NCBI RefSeq assembly: GCF_002982315.1
Contig: NZ_MWZD01000016.1
Coordinates: 62,001-126,000, forward strand
Source: Leucobacter massiliensis
GTDB taxonomy: Bacteria; Actinomycetota; Actinomycetes; Actinomycetales; Microbacteriaceae
Direction of reading: 5' to 3'
DNA length: 64,000 nt
Of this stretch, positions 1,079 to 64,000 are shown piece by piece (the first letter of the stretch is position 1; each line of letters begins with the position of its first letter). The notes under the pieces were generated by a model. The model saw only the letters and a program-made list of their open reading frames with translations. It did not search any database and was not told where the DNA came from. Made by a program: the position numbers and the translations under genes.

Positions 1079-4576
<3,498 letters not shown>

Positions 4577-4584
4577 TCCCGTGA

Positions 4585-4606
4585 GATCTCATGCGCGCAT
4601 GAGATC
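4585..4606. repeat. 22-bp perfect palindrome between rpoB and rpoC
   Basis: The arm GATCTCATGC is followed immediately by its exact complement, centred between 4595 and 4596. As RNA it forms a tight hairpin just after the rpoB stop. A second GC-rich hairpin, CCCGCC (4623-4628) with GGCGGG (4632-4637), follows. Neither has a T run, so they look more like processing or mRNA stability structures than terminators. Confidence 0.75.
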
Positions 4607-26454: not shown

Positions 26455-26991
26455 ATGTCACGTATTGGTAAGCTTCCCATCACCGTTCCCGGTGGTGTCG
26501 ACGTCAAGATCGAGGGCCAGAAGGTCACGGTCAAGGGTTCGAAGGGCGAGCTCTCGCTCGTCGTCTCCGAGCCCATCCGCGTTGCAGTCGAGGACGGACA
26601 GGTGCTGGTCACCCGTCCCGACGACGAGCGCGATTCCCGAGCGCTGCACGGCCTGACCCGCACGCTCATCAACAACAACATCATCGGTGTCACCGAGGGC
26701 TACACGAAGCAGCTCGAGGTCGTCGGCACGGGCTACCGCGTGCAGCAGAAGGGTTCGGGCCTGGAGCTCGCGCTCGGCTTCTCGCACCCGGTGAGCTTCG
26801 ATGCGCCGGAGGGCATCACCCTTGCGGTCGAGGGCAACACGAAGATCACCGTCAGCGGCATCTCGAAGCAGGCGGTCGGCGAAGTCGCTGCCAACATCCG
26901 CAAGCTGAAGAAGCCGGAGCCGTACAAGGGCAAGGGCATCCGCTACGCGGGCGAGGTCGTCCGTCGCAAGGCAGGAAAGGCTGGTAAGTAA
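26455..26991 (+). CDS. rplF: 50S ribosomal protein L6
   Basis: L6, 178 residues, two related domains near the factor-binding site. [15 protein letters not shown] and [19 protein letters not shown] are signatures. Six bases after rpsH. Confidence 0.98.
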
Positions 26992-40716: not shown

Positions 40717-41196
40717 GTGACTGAAGAGCAGACCGTGGCCACCGAGAGCTACACCACCGAGACCCCCGCGTCGCAGGCGACCGTGTCGAGCCCGCGTCCC
40801 GCGCTCACCGTCCCCGGTGCGGCCGTCGGCCGCCGCAAGCAGGCCATCGCCCGCGTGCGCCTCGTCCCCGGCTCGGGCACCATGACCGTCAACGGCCGTG
40901 AGCTCGCGGAGTACTTCCCCAACAAGCTGCACCAGCAGCTCATCACCGATCCCTTCACGGTGCTCGAGCTGAACGGCTCCTACGACGTGATCGCCCGCAT
41001 CGTCGGCGGCGGCCCCTCGGGCCAGGCCGGTGCGCTGCGTCTCGCGATCGCTCGCGCGCTGAACGAGATCGACGCCGAGCACAACCGCCCGACGCTCAAG
41101 AAGGCCGGCTTCCTCAGCCGCGACGCCCGCATCAAGGAGCGCAAGAAGGCCGGTCTCAAGAAGGCCCGCAAGGCGCCCCAGTACTCGAAGCGCTAA
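40717..41196 (+). CDS. rpsI: 30S ribosomal protein S9
   Basis: S9, 159 residues, whose C-terminal tail ([11 protein letters not shown]) reaches the P-site tRNA. The start is GTG 40717 behind AGAGAGAGAC. The first 30 residues ([20 protein letters not shown]) are an acidic, Thr-rich extension before the core at [18 protein letters not shown]. Confidence 0.96.
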
Positions 41197-43783: not shown

Positions 43784-45048
43784 TCAGTACCAGTGGGGGT
43801 TGCGCGACTGCCACATCGCCCACGCGTTGCACGGTGAGCCGTAGGCCGCGCTGATGTAGGCGAGGCCCCACGAGATCTGCGTGGCGGCGTTGGTGCGCCA
43901 GTCCGGTCCCGCGGCCGCCATCTTCTCGGCGGGCAGTGACTGGGGGATTCCGTAGGCCCCGCTCCACGGGTTCAGCGCATCCGCCCGCCAGCCCGACTCG
44001 CCGTTCCACAGCGACACCAGGCATGAGAACTGGTCGTTGCCCCAGCCGTACGCGGGCAGCATCCCCGCGGCGATGGCCTGCGCGGCGGCCGGGTCGACGT
44101 CGACGCCGCCCACCCCGATGTTGCCCCCTCCCGGGCCGCTCTCCTGCTGCCGCCGCCGAGCCCGGGAGATGTGTAAAAGAGACGGTGTAAAAGAGACGGC
44201 CCCCCCCCTCCCGGGCCGCTCTCCTGCTGCCGCCGCCGAGCCTCCTCCGCCTGCCGCTGCCGCTCGGCATCGGCCGCGCGCTCCTGTTCCGCGACCTGCA
44301 GGCCCACTTGGTACTGGCGTTCCACCTCGGCCGTGGTGCCGCGCAGGGAGGCGAGCTGCGCGGTGACGGTGTCGGCGTTGTCGCTCGCGGTCTCGACGGC
44401 CGCGTCGGCGGCTCGCTGCGCCTCGGCGGCCGCCTCGGCCGCGGTTCGCGCCTCCGCGGCGAGCCGCTGACGCTCCTCACGGGCCGTCGCCGCCTGCTTC
44501 TCCAGATCGGACTCGGCGTTCACGGACTCGGCGGCGCGCGCCGCCAGGGCCTCCCACGTGCCGGAGACCTGCGTGGCGGTGCCGTACTTGGCCATGAAGT
44601 CGCCGGGGTCGTCGGAGAGGATCAGCTGACTCGTGCTGGCGAGGCCCGTTCCGTCGCGGTACATCCATGCCACCACCCGCGCGACCGTGTCGCTGTTCTC
44701 CTCGAGCTCGCGGCGGTCGGCGTCGAGCCGCTCGCTCAGCTGCTGCTCGCGTTCGCGCGCCGCGGCCAGCGACTGTTCGGCCTGGTGGCTGTCGAGCAGC
44801 GCCTGCACCGCGCGAGTCGACGCCGCCGCCGACTCGGACTGGGCGCGCTGCAGCGCCGCCTGCAGCTTCTCCAGCTCCGCCGCCTTCGCGCTCTCCGAGG
44901 CGCGCGCGGCGTTCACCTCGTCCCAGCTGGGGTAGCCGTTGGCCGTGTCTCCCTCGCCGACCGCGATCGCGGGCAGAGCGCCACCCATCACGAGCGTCGC
45001 CGCGAGAGCGGCGACCACGACACGGGACGTCAGGCGTGGTACTGCCAT
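43784..45048 (-). pseudogene. Secreted coiled-coil protein with lytic transglycosylase-like domain, split by an insertion
   Basis: The N-terminal piece begins MAVPRLTSRVVVAALAATLV, a signal peptide, followed by a long Ala/Glu/Arg coiled coil (about residues 45-120 and 175-270). The C-terminal piece is a transglycosylase/aggregation-promoting-factor type domain: WNGESGWRADALNPWSGAYG, IPQSLPAEKM and NAATQISWGLAYISAAYG. An 80-base insertion (about 44124-44203) puts them in different frames. Removing it gives one frame reading ESGPGGGNIGVGGVDVDP and a protein of 394 residues. The inserted bases resemble sequencing adapter, so the living gene is probably intact. The protein likely acts on peptidoglycan outside the cell. 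Confidence 0.85.
44124..44242. other. Adapter-like insertion with 39-bp direct repeats (likely assembly artefact)
   Basis: A 39-base segment at 44124-44162 is repeated exactly at 44204-44242. Between them 44167-44185 reads AGATGTGTAAAAGAGACGG, matching the Tn5/Nextera mosaic end AGATGTGTATAAGAGACAG at 17 of 19 positions, and a second copy of its last 14 bases follows directly (44186-44199). A run of nine C follows. Removing 80 bases restores the host gene exactly. Confidence 0.85.
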
Positions 45049-45105: not shown

Positions 45106-46086
45106 TCACATCTTGCGCAGCAGGACCTTCTGCACGCGGTGGTCCGACTCCTTGCGCAGCACGAGCGTGGCGCGTGCGCGAGTGGGGCGGATGTTCTCGA
45201 TGAGGTTCGGCTCGTTGATGTTGGTCCAGAACTCGTCGGCGAGCGCCACGGCGGCGTCGTCGTCGAGCGTGGCGAAGCGCCGGAAGTAGGAGCTCGGGTC
45301 GGAGAAGGCGCTCTGCCGCAGCTTGAGGAAGCGGTTGCGGTACCAGCCGTGGATGTCGCTCGTGCGCGCGTCGACGTAGACGGAGAAGTCGAAGAGGTCG
45401 CTCACGGCGAGCGGATGCTGCATGGAAGGGGGCTGCAGCACGTTGAGGCCCTCGACGATGAGGATGTCGGGCCGCCGCACCACCGTGAACTCGCCCGGGA
45501 CGATGTCGTACACGAGGTGGCTGTAGTGGGGCGCCCGGACCTCCTCCACCCCCGCCTTCACCTGCGAGACGAAGCGCAGCAGCGCGCGCCGGTCGTAGGA
45601 CTCGGGGAAGCCCTTGCGCGCCGAGATGCCGCGCCGCTGCAGCTCGGCGTTCGGGTAGAGGAATCCGTCTGTGGTGACGAGTTCGACGTGCGGCGTCTCC
45701 GGCCAGCGCGCCAGCAGGTCGCGGAGGATGCGCGCCACCGTCGACTTGCCCACCGCCACGGATCCGGCGATCCCGATCACGAAGGGGCTCTGCCGCTCCG
45801 CACGCCGGTGCAGGAAGCCGCGGGTGCGGCGGTGCATCTCGCGGGCGGCGATGGCGTACTGGTTGATGAGCCGGCTCAGCGGCCGGTACACCTCGGACAC
45901 CTCGGCGAGGTCGAGCGGCTCGCCGAGACCGCGGAAGGCGGCCACTTCCCGCTCGTTGAGGGGCATGGGGGTCTCACCGGCCAGCCGGGACCACTCCTCT
46001 CGGCCGATCTCCGTGAACGGCGAGGTGAACTCGGGGCGCACGAGCGCCTGAGTGTCTGTGCTGGGGTCGCTGCTGTACTCGGCCAT
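45106..46086 (-). CDS. coaA: Type I pantothenate kinase
   Basis: Phosphorylates pantothenate, the first step to coenzyme A. 326 residues. The Walker A motif is GIAGSVAVGKSTVA; LVTTDGFLYPNAEL and RAPHYSHLVYDIVPGE are typical of the CoaA type. Divergent from glmS with 32 bases between the start codons. On its strand GGGTGG precedes the ATG. Confidence 0.96.
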   Translation of the reverse strand: MAEYSSDPSTDTQALVRPEFTSPFTEIGREEWSRLAGETPMPLNEREVAAFRGLGEPLDLAEVSEVYRPLSRLINQYAIAAREMHRRTRGFLHRRAERQSPFVIGIAGSVAVGKSTVARILRDLLARWPETPHVELVTTDGFLYPNAELQRRGISARKGFPESYDRRALLRFVSQVKAGVEEVRAPHYSHLVYDIVPGEFTVVRRPDILIVEGLNVLQPPSMQHPLAVSDLFDFSVYVDARTSDIHGWYRNRFLKLRQSAFSDPSSYFRRFATLDDDAAVALADEFWTNINEPNLIENIRPTRARATLVLRKESDHRVQKVLLRKM

Positions 46087-46105
46087 CGTCCACCCATGGT
46101 GCCAC

Positions 46106-46118
46106 TAAACTCGTACCC
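46106..46118 (+). promoter_or_regulatory. Candidate -10 for leaderless glmS transcript
   Basis: TAAACT (46106-46111) ends seven bases before the glmS ATG, so a transcript from it would begin at or next to the start codon. No ribosome site is present before the ATG. A -35 would lie in the coaA 5' end; none matches well. Confidence 0.45.
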
Positions 46119-47969
46119 ATGTGTGGAATCGTCGGATATGTCGGCCCCAATGACACGGTCGAAGTGCTCCTGAACGGCCTGCGGCGCCTCGAGTACCGCG
46201 GCTACGACTCGGCCGGCATCGCCGTGATCGATGAGGCGGATCAGGTGTCGGTGCGCAAGCGCTCCGGCAAGCTCGCCCGGCTGGAGGAACTGCTGGAGGC
46301 GAATCCGGTCGCCGCGAAGGGGACGGGGATCGGGCACACCCGGTGGGCCACGCACGGCGGCCCCACCGACGTGAACGCGCACCCGCACCTCGGCGACGGC
46401 GGCAAGCTGGCGCTCATCCACAACGGCATCGTCGAGAACTTCGCGGAGCTCCGCGGCGAGGTCGAGGCGGCCGGCGTGGAGCTGCTGAGCGAGACCGACA
46501 CGGAAGTGGTCGCCGCCCTCGTGGGCGTGGCGATGGCGGAGCACGGCGATCTCGAGTCCGCCTTCCGCTCGGTGGTCACCCGCCTGCACGGCACCTTCAC
46601 CCTGCTGGCCATGCACCGCGACGAGCCGGGCAAGGTGGTCGCGGCCCGCCACCACTCGCCGCTCGTCGTCGGCATCGGCGACGGCGAGAACTTCCTCGGC
46701 TCCGACGTCGCGGCCTTCGTGTCCTCGACGCGCCGCGCGGTCGCGGTCGACGAGGACAACATCGCGGTCATCACCCCGCTTGAGGTGCGCATCACGGACT
46801 TCGCCGGCAACCCGGTGGAGTTCGAGGAGTACGAGGTGCAGTGGGATGCGGACGCCGCCGACAAGGGCGGCTGGTCCTCGTTCATGGCGAAGGAGATCAA
46901 CGACCAGCCCGACGCCGTCGAGAACACGGTGCGCGGCCGGGTCTCGGAGCGCGGAGTGGAGATCCCGGAGCTGACCGCGCTCGGCGATGAGCGCCTCGCC
47001 GGCATCGACCGCGTCATCATCATCGCCTGCGGCACGGCGGCGTACGCGGGCCAGGTGGGCGCCTACGCGATCGAGCAGTGGGCTCGCGTCCCGGTGGACG
47101 TGCAGCTGAGCCACGAGTTCCGCTACCGCGATCCCGTGCTCTCCGAGCGCACCATGGTGATCTCCGTGAGCCAGTCCGGCGAGACGATGGACACCCTCAT
47201 GGCGGTGAAGTACGCGCTCGAGCGCGGCGTCACCACGGTCTCCGTCTGCAACACGCAGAGCGCCACGATCCCGCGCGAGTCGGATGCGGCCGTGTACACG
47301 CACGCCGGGCCGGAGGTGGCGGTCGCCTCGACGAAGGCCTTCGTCGCGCAGATCACGGCGCTCTACCTGATCGGTCTCCACCTCGGGCGCGTGCGCGGCA
47401 CCCTCTCCGCGGAGGATCAGGCGCGGGCGGTGGAGCAGTTCGAGACGCTGCCGGCGAAGGTCCGCGAGGCGGTCGACACGCACGATCAGATCGCGCAGCT
47501 GGCGCACTGGATGGCGGACAGCCGCTCGGTGCTGTTCCTGGGCCGCCACGTCGGCTTCCCGATCGCCCTGGAGGGCGCGCTGAAGCTGAAGGAGATCGCG
47601 TACATCCACGCGGAGGGCTTCGCCGCGGGCGAGCTGAAGCACGGGCCGATCGCCCTGATCGACCACGGCCAGCCGGTGTTCGTGCTCGTGCCGAGCCCGC
47701 GCACCTCGCCGCTCATGCACTCGAAGGTCGTCTCCAACATCCAGGAGATCCGCGCCCGCGGCGCCCGCGTCATCGCGATCGTCGAGGTGGGCGACACCGC
47801 GGTGCTGCCTTTCGCGGACGACGTGATCCGCCTGCCCCTGGCCGACCCCTTCTTCGAGCCCCTGCTGCAGGTCATCCCGCTGCAGTGGTTCGCGCTGGAG
47901 CTGTCGACGGCTAAGGGCCTCGACGTCGACCAGCCCCGCAACCTCGCGAAGTCGGTGACGGTCGAGTAG
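46119..47969 (+). CDS. glmS: Glutamine-fructose-6-phosphate aminotransferase (isomerizing)
   Basis: Makes glucosamine-6-phosphate from fructose-6-phosphate and glutamine. 616 residues: glutaminase domain with Cys2 nucleophile (MCGIVGYVG), then two SIS domains (IIACGTAAYAG and SQSGETMDTLMAVKYA), ending in the conserved DQPRNLAKSVTVE. No glmS ribozyme space exists, since the gene starts 32 bases from coaA. It supplies GlmM encoded upstream. Confidence 0.97.
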   Translation: MCGIVGYVGPNDTVEVLLNGLRRLEYRGYDSAGIAVIDEADQVSVRKRSGKLARLEELLEANPVAAKGTGIGHTRWATHGGPTDVNAHPHLGDGGKLALIHNGIVENFAELRGEVEAAGVELLSETDTEVVAALVGVAMAEHGDLESAFRSVVTRLHGTFTLLAMHRDEPGKVVAARHHSPLVVGIGDGENFLGSDVAAFVSSTRRAVAVDEDNIAVITPLEVRITDFAGNPVEFEEYEVQWDADAADKGGWSSFMAKEINDQPDAVENTVRGRVSERGVEIPELTALGDERLAGIDRVIIIACGTAAYAGQVGAYAIEQWARVPVDVQLSHEFRYRDPVLSERTMVISVSQSGETMDTLMAVKYALERGVTTVSVCNTQSATIPRESDAAVYTHAGPEVAVASTKAFVAQITALYLIGLHLGRVRGTLSAEDQARAVEQFETLPAKVREAVDTHDQIAQLAHWMADSRSVLFLGRHVGFPIALEGALKLKEIAYIHAEGFAAGELKHGPIALIDHGQPVFVLVPSPRTSPLMHSKVVSNIQEIRARGARVIAIVEVGDTAVLPFADDVIRLPLADPFFEPLLQVIPLQWFALELSTAKGLDVDQPRNLAKSVTVE

Positions 47970-55460: not shown

Positions 55461-58400
55461 ATGCGCGGGGTGGCCAGGCGTGGTGTTGCGGGCGTGTTTC
55501 GGGCGCGGAGGCGCGGCGTGCTCCGGGGGCGTGTGCCCGCGGTGGTGGCGGCTGTCGCCGCGGGGGCGCTGGTGGTGGGGGTGCTGCCGGCGCTCTCGGG
55601 TTCGGGCCTGACCTCGGCGGCGGATGGCGCGGATGCGGCGGCGAGCTGGCAGCCGGGTGATGCGGCGGTGTCGGGTCCCTTGGCGTCGGGCACGCTGCCG
55701 GGTGTGGCGTCCGCGGTGGAGTACGCGTACGGCGTGGACTACGCGGGCGGCACGGAGGGTGCGGGAGCTGCGATCGCGGGTGCGGGTGAGACGGTGACGA
55801 TTCTGCAGGGCGACACCCTGACGGGTTCTGCGGCTGCGTGGAACACCGGGGACGATGCGTCCGCCTCTGTGAGCGTTGCCCCGGTTTCGGGCGAAGAAAT
55901 CTCGGGGGGGGGGGCTTCTCTAGCTGACGTTCTGCAGACCGCCCCCCTGCCCGATACGGGTGCGGGTGCGGCGCAGTTGCGCTGGGAGATTCCCGCCGCG
56001 GATGCGGCGGTCGTGAACACGGGAGCCCAGCCGACCGGGCTTGCGGTGACGGGGCCGGAGGGTGCCTCCGCGCAGACGAGCGTGTTCGTCGCCCAGCCGC
56101 AGCTGGAGGCGAGCCTGGAGGTGTCGGCCGACGGCGGCACGACGTGGGCGGGCGAGGTGGCTGCGCCCGAGGGGGCCGAGGTGGTGTGGCGGGTGACGGC
56201 CACGAACACCGGCAATGTGGACCTGACGGACGTGAAGGTCGCGACCGCGACGGCCAACGAGACGGACACCCTGGATGCCGGGGTGGGTGCCGAGATCGGC
56301 GCGCTCCCCGTGGGTGGGACGGGTTCTGCGACTTTCACGACCGAGGCGGGCGAAATCTCCGCGGGGGTGAGCGTGTCGGGGGTCTTCGATGCGGAGGGCC
56401 CGGACGGCAAGCCGCTCGTGGATCGCTTCACGGATGCCGCGGGCACCGCGGGGCGGGTGCCCTCGAACACCGCCAAAGCCGTCCTCGCTGTGGCTGATGA
56501 AACGCCCGAGGAAGGAACGGGCGCGCCGATCAGTGTCGCCCCTCTGAGTTCGGCCATCGCAGGGGGTACGCGCCTGACCTCTTCGATGAACGGGAGCACT
56601 GAAAACGCGGGTACAGGCGAGTTGATCTCGATCAAGACTGAATTCTTCGCCTATGTGCCGAAGGGGGGAAGCCTCCAGCTTGATCTGAACCTCGCCCTGA
56701 TCGCAGAAGATCCTGGTGCCGGTGTGCCTGGTACGTGGGACGGATTGAAGCTCTACGTGCAGTCTCCTTCGGGTGTAAAGACCCTCGCGTATCAGGGTCT
56801 ACCTGCCACTGCCACGAACAGCACCTTGGACCTGGGGGTGATGACCTTCAGTGATACGAACCCGAGTGAGACGGGTGGTGTGTGGCGAATCTGGTGGCAG
56901 GACACGAGCGTGTCCCCTGCCCGGGACCTAACCTTCGGGAGATGGGATAACGGGTCCCGAACGGACGGCAGAGGTGTCCTGTATTTTCCCGACAGCACCA
57001 TCGCTCCGCGGAACTCCTCGGGAGTGACGCTGACTGGCCAGGTTTGGACAGATGAGATCTCGTCATACGGCCTCTCCGCGCCCAACGCCGAGACTGTTCT
57101 GAAGGCTGGGCAGGTTCCAAGGTGGATTGAACTGGCACGAAGCTATGACCGTACCCTGTATAACCTGAGTGAGGACGGGGCCTTGTACCGAAACGTGGAG
57201 CGAGGCTTCAACGGTGTGACCTCCATGACGAGGACCGACAACTACGGTCTTGTCGGTGCGGCTCCCGCGGACGTTTGCGTTCGCGTGAACCGTTCCGGCA
57301 CTACGAACCCGGGAGAGCCCCCCGCTGGTAATGTCACCCGCTGGGGTGTTTCCGGAGCATGTCCTGACTTTATGCAGTACAAGCTGTTCTTCCAGCAGCC
57401 GAATACGGCGATGCCAGCGAGTGCGAAGTGGTTTGACGGGTCGACTCGACCTCTCTTGCCTGCGTACGTGTCTGCAACGGCGGATGTGTCTTACACGCAG
57501 ACGACGCCGGTCTCGAACGGGACCTACGGTGGGAACTTCACTGTGAGCCTGGGCGGCGACAGCAGCACCAGAGGTACGGCGAGGCTCGAGATCGACGTCG
57601 ACGCGAACGGCACGGTGGATCGGACTATCACCTTGCCAAACGCGGGGAACACGCCTAGCGGTACGCAGGTCATTCCCTGGGATGGACTGGCGGGTGCGGC
57701 TACGCCGGTCGAACTGTCGCATAAGCTTCGGGTCCGGTTGGTCTGGTACGTCCCCGCGTATGTCTACTTCGTCAACTCCGACACTGAGGCACGCACGGGA
57801 GGGATCACATCAACCATGTTGCGGGGGCCGGCGAGTTATGTGGGTTCCCACAACCTGATCTGGGATGACAGCATTTTCGTCGGCCAGCCCAACTACATGG
57901 GCACTGCCCTAGTGGGCCTCACCCCCAACCCAACGGTCACCACCGGGATGGATTCTTCTGCCGGTGTCCACAAGTGGGGCGAGTTCCGGGCTCTTCCGAA
58001 CAACACGCCTCTTGAGGGCAACTGGGGGGACAACCGTTTTATTCAGGATCGCACGGACTTCGCGGACGAGGCGGTCGATGTTCTGGAGCTTGATCCGCCT
58101 GCTCCAGTGATTCGAGTGGCGAAGTCGATTCCGAATGGTCGCTGGGACGACACGGATCAGTTCACGGTGTCGTTGCGGGAGGGGAGCGTGTCTGGGGCGA
58201 CGCGCACCTCGGTGACGACCGCGGGGACAGCGACCTTGGCGGTCTCGGCCCCATATACCGCGACGGCGGGGACGGCGTACTACGTGACGGAGGCCGGGAG
58301 TGGTGGTGCGGATCTCGCCAACTACGTGAAGAGGATTGTGTGTGTCGACGCGAACAACGTGCAGACGGGTCTGCCCGAGGGCGTGACGTTCGATCCCGTG

Positions 58401-59441: not shown

Positions 59442-59591
59442 CTCCTCGGTTCCATGCGCCTCGCGGCAGTGCAGCGCCTGCCTCTGCTTACGGGCCGGGA
59501 GCTTCTTCGACGGGAGGGCGCATGTAGGTGCTGGTGTCCCGGTGTTAGTGAGTGTTTTCAAGTTGTTGTACCAGTGAGTTTAAGGAGAATC

Positions 59592-59799
59592 ATGAGCGTG
59601 GTACGTAGGAAGCGGTTGGGTGCGGCGGTTGCCGTGCTGGCTGCGGTGGGCCTGGTGCTTTCGGGTCCGGTGGCGGCGAATGCACTGGTGGAGGAGCCGC
59701 CTCTGTCGCCGATTGTGACGCCGGACGCGGGCCAGAGGGCGTCGCTGACGATTCATAAGCGCGACACCTCGGATGGGGTGGGGGAGCCCGGAACGGGTA
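59592..59799 (+). pseudogene. 5' part of major pilin gene, interrupted by an IS element
   Basis: Signal peptide MSVVRRKRLGAAVAVLAAVG then LVLSGPVAANALVEEPPLSP and the start of a pilin domain (ASLTIHKRDTSDGVGEPGTG). ATG behind AAGGAGAATC. The frame is cut at 59799 by the IS3-family insertion; the rest of the gene resumes at 61187. Without the element and one GGTA copy the two parts make one open frame of 553 codons. As read, a 84-residue secreted fragment ending in IS-derived residues would be made. Confidence 0.93.
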
Positions 59800-59851
59800 T
59801 GAAGCGCCCCGGGTCTGATGGAGGCTCTCAATCCAGTGAAGGATGAGAGTC

Positions 59852-60172
59852 ATGGCAGCACCACGGAAGTACAGCGAGGAGCTCAAGGAGCGCGCGACGC
59901 GGATGGCGCTGGACGCGCGCCAGAACCCCGCGACGAAGACCGGAGCGATCAAACGGATCGCCGACCAGCTCGATATCCATCCCGAGGCCTTGCGCACCTG
60001 GGTGAGGCAGGCCGAGATCGACGCCGGCGACGCGCCAGGCACCACGACCGCGGACACGCAGAAGATCGCCGACCTCGAACGAGAGGTCCGTGAGCTGCGG
60101 CGGGCGAACGAGATCTTGAAGACCGCGTCGGCTTTTTTCGCGGCCGCGGAGCTCGACCGCAAGCTGAGGTAA
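59852..60172 (+). CDS. IS3-family transposase OrfA
   Basis: 106 residues from ATG 59852, behind GAAGGA at eight bases (an ATG at 59843 overlaps that site). Helix-turn-helix of the transposase-8 type: KYSEELKERATRMALDAR, IADQLDIHPEALRTWVRQAE. The C-terminal leucine zipper is IADLEREVRELRRANEILKT. Near the end it contains T TTT TTC (60133-60139), a slippery site that would shift ribosomes to the -1 frame of OrfB. Confidence 0.93.
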   Translation: MAAPRKYSEELKERATRMALDARQNPATKTGAIKRIADQLDIHPEALRTWVRQAEIDAGDAPGTTTADTQKIADLEREVRELRRANEILKTASAFFAAAELDRKLR

Positions 60173-60177
60173 CCGGG

Positions 60178-61152
60178 GTGCCGGTCGCGGTGCTCGTCGA
60201 CTACATCGATGAGCACCGCGACCGGTTCGGGGTCGAGCCGATCTGCCATGTCCTGCGTGATGCGGGCCTGAAGATCGCCCCGAGCACCTACTACGCCGCC
60301 AAGACGCGCCCGCCCTCGGCCAGAGCGGTCAGAGACGAGCAACTGAAAGCGGACATCGCGGCTGTCCATGCCGACAATCTCGGCGTCTACGGGGCGCGGA
60401 AGGTCCACGCCGAGCTGAATCGAGAGGGCGTCTCGGTTGCCCGTTGCACCGTCGAGCGACTGATGCGCGAGCTCGAGCTGCAGGGGCTCCGGCGCGATAA
60501 GACGATCAAGACCACCTCGGGTGATACTGCGGAGACGGAGCGGCCAGCGGATCTCGTCGAACGAGCGTTCACCGCGACAGCACCGAATCAGCTCTGGGTC
60601 GCGGATCTGACCTACATCCGCACCCATGCCGGATGGGTCTACGCGGCGTTCGTGATCGACGTGTTCAGCAGGCTCGTCGTCGGCTGGCAGGTGTCCACGA
60701 GCCTACGCACGGAACTCGCGCTCGACGCGCTCGATATGGGGCTCTGGCAGCGCCGCAGAAACGGGCAGGACACGACCGGGCTCATCCACCACAGCGACCG
60801 AGGAGTCCAGTATCGCGCCATTCGCTACACCGAGCGCCTCGCCGAAGCCGATGCCGTTGCTTCCGTTGGAAGCAAAGGCGATTCGTATGACAACGCGATG
60901 GCCGAGGCGTTCAACTCGCTGTTCAAGGGCGAGTGCATCCGCAACCCAGCGATGCGTCCGAAGGGCGGCTGGGCATCCATCGGCGACGTCGAGATCGCCG
61001 TCGCCGAATACGTCGACTGGTTCAACCAGCGGCGTCTCCACGGCGAGATCGGGCACGTCCCGCCGGCCGAGTTCGAGCAGTCGCATTGGGCATCGCACGA
61101 CGCGGCCCGCTACGCTCACGAGCAGGTTCCGATCGGAGCCGGTTCCAGATAA
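60178..61152 (+). CDS. IS3-family transposase OrfB, DDE integrase core
   Basis: 324 residues from the nominal GTG; in practice probably made as an OrfAB fusion, since its frame is open back to the slippery site at 60133-60139. Catalytic residues are Asp143 (WVADLTYI), Asp207 (HHSDRGVQY) and Glu243 (AEAFNSLFKGE), giving the expected D-35-E spacing. The N-terminal helical domain (VYGARKVHAELNREGVSVAR) is also typical. Confidence 0.95.
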   Translation: MPVAVLVDYIDEHRDRFGVEPICHVLRDAGLKIAPSTYYAAKTRPPSARAVRDEQLKADIAAVHADNLGVYGARKVHAELNREGVSVARCTVERLMRELELQGLRRDKTIKTTSGDTAETERPADLVERAFTATAPNQLWVADLTYIRTHAGWVYAAFVIDVFSRLVVGWQVSTSLRTELALDALDMGLWQRRRNGQDTTGLIHHSDRGVQYRAIRYTERLAEADAVASVGSKGDSYDNAMAEAFNSLFKGECIRNPAMRPKGGWASIGDVEIAVAEYVDWFNQRRLHGEIGHVPPAEFEQSHWASHDAARYAHEQVPIGAGSR

Positions 61153-61186
61153 CCGAGCCTCCACAAAACCCGGGGCGCTTCAGGTA

Positions 61187-62640
61187 TGGAGCTCGATTCG
61201 GCGCCGGGCGACCCGGTTGAGGATGTCGTATTCGAGGTGAGGCGAGTGTCGCATAGCGGCACTCCTATCGATATGCGGACGATTGCGGGGCAGCAGCTTG
61301 CTGCGCAGGTGCTGGGTTCGTGGGATGGGGTGTCGCTTTCGGCTCCGTTTTCGGTGCCGTCCACAGGGGTGGAAGAGACGACCGATGAGGACGGCCTGGC
61401 GGTGTTCGACAATCTGGAGCTGGGTCTGTACCTGGTGGAAGAGGTGTCGGCCCCTGCTGGGGTGACGCCTGCTGGCCCGTTCCTGGTGACGCTGCCCCTG
61501 TCGCAGCCCGGCCCGCACCCGGAGACCACGAGTTGGACGGGTGACTGGTGGCTGTACAACGTGCACGTGTACCCGAAGAATGCGGTGACCCCGGCACCGG
61601 TGAAAACGGTTGAGGACTCTGAGATCCACCACAGGGGCCAGGTCACGACGTGGACGATCACGACGACGCTTCAGGGTGCGCCTCATGATCTGAATGGTGA
61701 TTCGACGATCACTGGTGACGAGGTGCACTCGTTCACCGGGTTCGCGGTGCGGGATGATCTGGATTCCCGGCTCGTGTACCTGGCTGACAGCTTGAAGCTG
61801 AAGGTGGATGGTGTGGATCTGGTCCCGGCGGACTACACGGTGACGTGGGATCCGGCGCCGGACGAGGAGGGCGTTGTTCCTGCGGGTGCGGTGATGCTGA
61901 TCCAGTTCACCGAGCAGGGTCTGGCGAAACTGAACGCTGCCGGTGACGGGGGCGAGCTGGCGGTGTCGTTTGACACGGTCGCGAACGCGAGCGGTGTGAT
62001 TCCGAACACTGCGCAGGTGTACACGAACGGGTACGACACTGAGCTGGGTCCGGACGAGCAGGATGTGCCGCCGACGGTGACGCCGACCGTGGAGCAGAAG
62101 TTCGGTGGGATCACCTTGGTGAAGACCGCGTCGGATACGAATGCCGCTCAGCCGGGTGCGAAGTTCCAGGTGTGGGTGGATGTCAACGGGAACGGCAAGC
62201 TCGATGAGGGCACCGACACGGCAGTGGACCAGGACGGGACTGCGGGCCCTGATGTGTGGACCACGGGCAATGACGGCAAGGTCGTGATCGACGGTCTGCG
62301 GTACTCGAACTGGGCTGATGGCAAGGCTGTGACCGAGACGGATCCGGAGTACAACAAGTATCTGCTGGTCGAAGTGGATGCGCCTGAGGGGTACTCGCTG
62401 CTCGCTGCTGCGGTGCCGTTCGTGGTGACGACGCCTGCTTCGGGTGAGGGCGCGACGCAGGTTCCGGTGGTGAACAAGCCGTTCAATAGCGGTCCTGAGC
62501 TGCCCCTGACGGGCGGTGCGGGCCTGGGTCTGCTGATCGGTACCGGTGCGGTGCTGATGGGTGGTGGCGCGTTGCTGCTGGGTCTGCATGTGGCGCGTCG
62601 TCGCCGTGAGCAGGCGGCTGCGGCTGCGGCCCTGCTGTAA
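61187..62640 (+). pseudogene. 3' part of major pilin gene, downstream of the IS element
   Basis: Carries most of the pilin. The pilin motif WLYNVHVYPK supplies the lysine used for polymerisation by class C sortases. A SpaA-like domain with E box YLVEEVSAPAGV, a middle domain with TWTITTTLQGAP and VIPNTAQVYTNGY, and a C-terminal prealbumin domain with YLLVEVDAPEGYSLL follow. It ends in LPLTGG, a hydrophobic helix and RRRREQ, the sorting signal. The fragment has its own ATG at 61186-61188 but no signal peptide, so export is unlikely while the element is present. Confidence 0.93.
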
Positions 62641-62993: not shown

Positions 62994-63034
62994 ACAACCG
63001 TTGGTCGGCAAAGTCAGATGTTTAGAATAGGCTG
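62994..63034. other. Degraded Nextera read-1 adapter-like sequence
   Basis: 63002-63034 matches the 33-base Nextera read-1 adapter at 25 of 33 positions, including TCGGCA and GTCAGATGT. The eight preceding bases would be the index, and the AT-richer stretch 62965-62993 loosely resembles the P5 end. Suggests an artificial junction. Confidence 0.6.
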
Positions 63035-63080
63035 CCCTGGAGCGGTCCCCTCCGGGGGTGGGCGCCCGACGGTGTCGGTC

Positions 63081-63593
63081 ATGTGGCGTCCGTCCGGGTC
63101 GGGGGAGCTGCGGGCGTGGGAACAGCACCGGACGCGTGTCCTCGGCCGTGACCGTCGCATTCTCGCCGACGCGCCGCTGCTCACCGGGGGCGGGGCTGCG
63201 GTGGGGAAGATCACGCGCCGCAGCGGGGGCGCGCACACCTGGAGTCTGCTCCTCGGGGGCACCCTGGTCGGGGTGTCCGCCCATGCCTACGCCACCCCGG
63301 AGGCCGCCCTCCAGGACGCGCACGCTGCGCAGGCCGGGCGGGTGATGGTGGGGGTGCGCACCCGGCGGGGGCGCGTGTTCTGGGTCCTCGGCGTCGACCA
63401 CACCCCCGTCCTCATCGCTGCGACCCCGCACCCCGATCCCGCGGCGGCCACCCAGGCCGGGTGGGAGGCGGCCCGGGCCCTCGCCCACGCCCAGCTCCCC
63501 GACGGCTCCGGCACCCCCGGTGTTCCTGACAGCTCCGGTGTTCCTGGTGGCTCTGACGGCTCGGGTGCTTCCGATAGTGCGGGGGTGGGGTGA
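63081..63593 (+). CDS. Unidentified protein with Gly/Ser/Pro-rich tail
   Basis: 170 residues from ATG 63081 (MWRPSGSGELRAWEQHRTRV); the frame is open further left but that part overlaps adapter-like sequence. Codon use is high-GC and gene-like. No membrane segment. Residues 55-120 alternate beta-like and helical stretches (HTWSLLLGGTLVGVSAHAYA; VFWVLGVDHTPVLIAATP), and the tail has GVPDSSGVPGGSDGSG. A further ATG overlaps the stop (TGATG) but is lost after 18 codons. It lies between two adapter-like segments, so it may belong elsewhere in the genome. No family recognised. Confidence 0.4.
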   Translation: MWRPSGSGELRAWEQHRTRVLGRDRRILADAPLLTGGGAAVGKITRRSGGAHTWSLLLGGTLVGVSAHAYATPEAALQDAHAAQAGRVMVGVRTRRGRVFWVLGVDHTPVLIAATPHPDPAAATQAGWEAARALAHAQLPDGSGTPGVPDSSGVPGGSDGSGASDSAGVG

Positions 63594-63611
63594 TGGTGCG
63601 GCGTGTGGCGG

Positions 63612-63852
63612 CTGTTTCTTTCTCTCATACGCAGCTGCCGCCGCCATGGAGGGCGTAGGTGTTGGTGGTGGGGGTATGTGTTAACATCAAAAAAATATTT
63701 AGATAGGGCATGCGGGTCGCGTCACGTGAGGGTGAATTGTAGTATCGACAGTTAATGAGGATACTAGAGGTTATGTGGAGTAATTTTTTTTTTGTGTGCA
63801 GGCAGAAGACGGCGTACGGGGTCAGGGTGGGTCTGGTGGGCTGGGAGATGTG
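63612..63852. other. Adapter-derived junction: P5-side read-through, A run, T run, P7-index-read-2 adapter
   Basis: 63799-63822 matches the 24-base Illumina P7 sequence at 20 positions, all four differences being A to G (CAGGCAGAAGACGGCGTACG). Eight index bases follow (CAGGGTGG), then 63831-63852 matches the Nextera read-2 adapter at 20 of 22 (GTCTGGTGGGCTGGGAGATG). Ten T precede P7 (63784-63793). On the left, 63612-63644 and 63653-63681, eight bases apart, match the reversed read-1 adapter (22/33) and reversed P5 (about 19/29), then an A-rich run. This is the layout of two reads that ran through their adapters, joined tail to tail. Confidence 0.85.
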
Positions 63853-64000
63853 ACGGTGCTGGCGATGGTGGCGGGGGTGGGGGTGTTCACGTATCCGGCG
63901 GCGGCGAACTGGTACAACGACCGCTTGCATGCCTCGCAGGTGCACAGTTATGTGGGTGCGGTGACCCGCTTGCCGGATGCCGAGCTGGAGGCGGCGGTGC
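63853..64000 (+). CDS. Class C sortase, fragment cut by window edge
   Basis: The frame reads TVLAMVAGVGVFTYPAAANW then YNDRLHASQVHSYVGAVTRL and runs off the right edge. A membrane helix followed by YPxxANWYND is characteristic of the N-terminal region of pilus-specific class C sortases, which polymerise pilins through the YPK lysine and LPxTG threonine. Start codons at 63796 or 63850 lie inside adapter-like sequence and are not credible; the real start is probably ATG 62849. Catalytic Cys/His/Arg lie beyond the window. Confidence 0.8.

Follow-up and report, generated by a model that had tools for sequence, protein, structure and literature searches.

The sortase gene (Sortase, PF04203) at the right edge of the window, by which is meant the whole 64,000-nucleotide stretch of Leucobacter massiliensis contig C8 that was analysed, raises the question of whether the sequence to its left is its native neighbour. 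A first-pass annotation had placed a full Illumina adapter at 63784-63852 and had held that the sequence left of 63853 does not belong before the sortase. Judged from its letters, the string at 63784-63852 is well supported as an Illumina library adapter, and the foreign block begins well left of 63784. Positions 63612-63852 read as a mirror-image scar in which two read-through ends stand tail to tail (Table 1), in the order insert, reverse complement of Read 1 (Read1rc), i5 index, reverse complement of P5 (P5rc), poly-A, tail, poly-T, P7, i7 index, Read 2 and insert. This arrangement, taken from sequence alone, argues that the scar is very probably an assembly artefact that joins two assembly pieces.

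Table 1. Features of the scar, of its surroundings and of the contig ends. Positions are those of the window unless a contig is named.
Feature	Position	Strand	Basis or remark
Degenerate Nextera Read 1 adapter end	63002-63034	+	25/33; left border of the putatively displaced piece
Genome-like piece, 185-aa stretch of open frame	63036-63611	+	homologue at C7:46376-46942
Degenerate Nextera Read 1 adapter, reverse complement	63612-63644	-	read-through orientation; gapped alignment
i5 index slot CATGGAGG	63645-63652	-	S506 reverse complement TATGCAGT fits 5/8
Degenerate P5, reverse complement	63653-63681	-	19/29, adjoining the index slot
Run of seven A after P5rc	63689-63695	.	sequence reading
AT-rich tail between the adapter halves, about 90 bases	63696-63783	.	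composition and no DNA match
Run of ten T	63784-63793	.	mirrors the poly-A of the left half
P7	63799-63822	+	20/24, all four differences A to G
i7 index slot CAGGGTGG, 8 bases	63823-63830	+	best fit N710
Nextera Read 2 up to ...AGATGTG, 22 bases	63831-63852	+	20/22, both differences C to G
Sortase coding sequence (PF04203)	63853-64000	+	runs beyond the window to about C8:126479
Outward-pointing contig-end remnants	C8:161, C10:78, C12:5179, C18:4814		

The two halves of the scar

In the right half, P7, an 8-base index and Read 2 follow one another at 63799-63852 in the order and with the spacing of the Nextera adapter. The P7 count with its A-to-G changes, the gap of index size, the Read 2 count and the correct order and spacing given by the first-pass annotation were all borne out when the letters were re-read, and the gap, besides being of the right length, matches N710 (CAGCCTCG) at five of eight bases, with three C-to-G changes, the runner-up catalogue index reaching 4/8. 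Two of its statements hold in part. The ten T and P7 are both present but do not abut, as five extra bases that went unmentioned (GTGTG, 63794-63798) lie between them, and the adapter is there but is not full: of the 19-base mosaic end, only the first seven bases (AGATGTG, 63846-63852) are present and the following 12 match at 2/12, and no complete mosaic end adjoins the insert at 63853. The missing bases leave the identity of the string intact, since this rests on its other parts. Compared with P7, N710 and Read 2 written as one string, the scar agrees at 45 of 54 positions, and every one of the nine differences is a change to G.

The claim that chance cannot explain this match withstands the controls. 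P7 matches at 20 bases in the scar, whereas the best of 20 shuffles of the window that preserve local composition gives 17. A gapped Read2-index-P7-polyA template reaches 63, where the best of 20 null runs (5 shuffles, each scanned with 4 templates) is 30. With the N710 index written in, the template scores 80 at the scar, whereas nothing in the window scores above 32 with the reversed templates. With two TruSeq read adapters as controls, no match rose above the shuffle maxima, either in the window or in two further stretches. A genome-wide search for P7 at up to 3 mismatches returned 0 sites, and since the copy in the scar carries four, the genome holds no cleaner one.

The left half is more degenerate in its single parts. 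Read1rc also has another, ungapped register at 63618, with 24/33 matches against a shuffle maximum of 21. P5rc by itself equals the shuffle maximum (19), and what makes it evidence is its place, exactly one index length beyond Read1rc; taken together, 63612-63693 score 52 against a Read1rc-index-P5rc template, the reversed control giving at most 32. A run of A follows, and poly-A is expected where a sequencing read passes the end of the adapter. The GC content falls to 0.415 over 63694-63787, compared with 0.764 in the piece on the left and 0.682 in the sortase DNA. As DNA, 63600-63849 matches nothing in 99 relatives and no other place in the same genome, and 63600-64000 has no match in plasmids.

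Several other places in the window were considered. Those at 26691 and 29863 are not claimed as adapter (gapped score 26, below the null maximum of 30), nor are 57468 and 57570, whose scores equal the shuffle maxima. The match at 40726 is also left unclaimed: P5 reaches 21/29 there against a shuffle maximum of 19, yet the gapped score is 27; the matches at 57058 (34) and 20959 (32) are likewise unclaimed, the reversed control itself reaching 32. Separately, a short Read 2 or mosaic-end remnant lies at 44152-44185 (24/34 against a shuffle maximum of 22), and a second mosaic-end copy adjoins it.

Adapter sites and barcodes across the genome

Adapter screening, proposed in the first-pass annotation, was carried out genome-wide with 19 bases of Read 1 (TACACATCTGACGCTGCCG) as a core, searched at up to 3 mismatches with the reversed pattern as control. 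The genome holds 33 Read 1 core sites, four of them exact (reversed control, 1), and seven Read 2 core sites, one of them exact (control, 0); the exact cores mean that trimming left some clean copies behind.

For the i5 index, the eight bases that follow the Read 1 core were compared with 18 known i5 indices, and for the i7 index, those next to the Read 2 core were compared with 26 known i7 indices; the letters of the N710 primer and of S506 are printed in PMC8225968 and PMC7589761, respectively. Counted without a shuffle control, and over sites of which some have a junction or a tail in common and are hence not independent, S506 is the single best index at 21 of the 30 Read 1 sites with loci (of 33), and N710 is the best at six of the seven Read 2 sites, the scar included. 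S506 is exact at 5 sites, and of the nine at which it is not the single best, five are ties and four favour another index. N710 is exact at one site, fits 7/8 at four and 5/8 at the scar itself, and the seventh site is a tie of other indices. A catalogue index is thus common to most of the remnants, as in a single library, and N710 had been proposed from the scar alone, before the other six Read 2 sites were read. One barcode pair, N710/S506, recurring across the genome is the mark of a sequencing library and hence of an artefact. In two distant Read 2 remnants, C9:825196 and C9:49602 (L120 and L124), the same 28 bases follow the poly-A, which means that the tails are not all independent noise.

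Convergent adapter pairs, 17-111 bases apart, form five distinct junctions, including the one at 63612-63852, and a single adapter half is found in 23 of 37 loci. Four of the 30 Read 1 sites that were read lie 200 bases or less from a contig end, and all four point outward, which is the orientation that read-through predicts. Over 37 sites, the 317 substitutions comprise 83 to G and 132 to C, and the balance between these errors tracks that of G and C in the 60 bases that precede the adapter in the read (Spearman 0.59, n=37, p=1e-4) in a test that was ungapped and that slips could bias. This lean might reflect sequencing error, and a reason that can be offered for the changes at the scar reading G on the plus strand is that, followed in the direction of the read, the insert is rich in C.

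Sequences on either side of the scar

On the right, DNA homology to the paralogous sortase on C7 starts at 63850, where the adapter ends, and homology therefore stops at the scar, as at a false join. By itself this is modest evidence, since sortase N-termini diverge. With a protein query cut at 63853, all but eight of the matches listed start within the first six residues, which shows only that the sortase sequence reaches the border, as the query itself was cut there. Together, the scar, the barcodes and the homology start support the first-pass view that the sortase does not natively have the sequence left of 63853 as its 5' neighbour. A scan of contigs with the sortase, used as a listing, returned as its best 80 of 518 loci sequences at most 48% identical, with this genome absent. 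The closest-matching sortase loci within the genome, C8:125853, C7:45557 and C10:158716, each have an adapter core site no more than 1.5 kb away, and its two other sortase matches, C2:1894 and C4:138954, do not.

On the left, the search with the piece 63036-63611 gave one good homologue, at C7:46376-46942 (38%, E 2.5e-18), and a further weak match in the relative G013 (2.2e-4, 54 residues). The homologue shares an open frame with the C7 sortase (45557-46177) and follows it directly; neither a Read 1 nor a Read 2 core site separates the two, and among the matches listed none lies near the third sortase, on C10. Because the homologue follows the paralogous sortase instead of preceding it, the piece is probably misplaced on C8, on the basis of this one paralogous locus. 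Its left side is closed by the Read 1 remnant at 63002-63034, and the piece thus has adapter on both sides. This remnant exceeds the ungapped shuffle maximum of 22 and contains, at C8:125006-125024, a 3-mismatch copy of the 19-base Read 1 core; it is weak in the gapped scans, with 29 against a null maximum of 30 and 34 against a reversed control of 32, and the score of 34 is also that of the unclaimed match at 57058.

Origin of the scar and adapters in other drafts

Adapter identity and order, the barcode pair found genome-wide, the five convergent junctions and the DNA homology boundary are seen in the sequence itself, whereas the short inserts, the incomplete trimming and the joining step are inferred. 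Read-through of a short-insert N710/S506 Nextera library followed by a tail-to-tail join by the assembler almost certainly accounts for the scar. In a dual-indexed library of this kind, some inserts would have been shorter than the read, and such reads would pass from the insert into the complement of Read 1 or Read 2, the index, the complement of P5 or P7, poly-A and finally noise. Misread copies of the adapter were probably trimmed less often and would stay at the ends of read sets, where the assembler could join two adapter-bearing ends tail to tail. At this locus, the right end of 63036-63611, with its Read 1, i5, P5 and poly-A tail, would have met the left end of the sortase piece, with its poly-T, P7, i7 and Read 2 tail. 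Points that speak against read-through and joining include the absent last 12 bases of the mosaic end at 63853, the five bases between the ten T and P7, the low scores of some flanking parts taken singly, the nine Read 1 sites at which S506 is not the single best index, the loci with a single adapter half and the exact core copies.

That the region is native coding sequence, the N-terminus of the sortase resembling P7 plus Read 2 by chance, is next to impossible. The frame is open from a GTG at 63796 into the sortase, with a predicted product of 288 aa, as native coding would have it; this predicted start lies inside the scar, just before P7, and the product would open with adapter-coded residues. 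Against this reading, the score of the scar far exceeds those of shuffles and reversed controls, the same adapters with the same barcodes are found repeatedly across the genome, which contradicts chance, and the homology to the sortase paralogue stops at the adapter border. It is likewise very improbable that whole library molecules were ligated end to end into physical concatemers and then sequenced. Ligation would give the order insert-Read1rc-i5-P5rc followed by P7-i7-Read2-insert, but the AT-rich tail of about 90 bases, with poly-A and poly-T, between P5rc and P7 is not expected in a ligated molecule, and the remnants at contig ends point outward, in agreement with read-through.

Like dual-indexed Nextera adapters carrying N710 and S506, the scar has P7, i7 and Read 2 in order and with the right spacing, and by the index letters in the papers cited above, exact i5 and i7 barcodes occur at other sites of the genome. 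Unlike an intact adapter, it carries nine substitutions over 54 bases and lacks the end of the mosaic end. Read 1 core sites are absent from 66 of the 99 relatives, and the others mostly have 1-5, in comparison with a reversed control that reaches 4 in one of them (G037). The draft G042 has 34 Read 1 core sites, 32 of them exact, and 14 of the exact ones are on the minus strand, no more than 40 bases from the start of a contig; G040 has two exact cores and G080 one. The drafts G042, G040, G080, G023 and G021 contain exact or near-exact Read 1 adapter. The untrimmed adapter at contig ends of G042 belongs to the same oligo family as the remnants in the L. massiliensis genome (G000). In contrast to G042, 35 of the 40 core sites in the latter are inexact, and 32 of the 37 core sites with loci are 1.5 kb or more away from either contig end, and these remnants can hide false joins because they are mostly inexact and far from contig ends.

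The genome, a public one of species level, passes quality checks, with a completeness of 99.26% and a contamination of 1.83%. Of its roughly 40 adapter sites, mostly degenerate and mostly contig-internal, a good number are likely to be false joins that escape exact screens, where misread copies survived trimming. If true, the genome would contain chimeric proteins and genes out of order, among other places around its three closest-matching sortase loci. Titles and abstract openings in the literature on adapter contamination of assemblies, misjoins and read-through or poly-A contained no title on scars of this kind, and none turned up for the adapter peptide CLLYTSDAAD. Gene order and protein ends near the scar are unreliable, and the scar, although of low biological interest, is useful as a quality warning. 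The error-tolerant templates Read1rc-S506-P5rc and Read2rc-N710-P7rc could flag other joins and similar degenerate scars in drafts.

Two further oddities lie nearby. At 59843-61152, two transposase-like frames of 109 aa and 324 aa, the latter with rve and HTH_21 domains and the two IS3-like in domains and layout, follow a short frame with a signal-like start (59454-59846) and precede a SpaA-type pilin frame (61186-62640); they are probably an insertion that split one pilin gene. About 490 bases to the right of the window, at positions 4489-4586 of the C8 locus L003, a 44-base inverted repeat (93%, 10 bases between the arms) stands at the end of the sortase domain. Beyond it the sortase-like sequence stops, and a Glu/Arg-rich protein without a Pfam match follows in another frame; the repeat may be a fold-back artefact.
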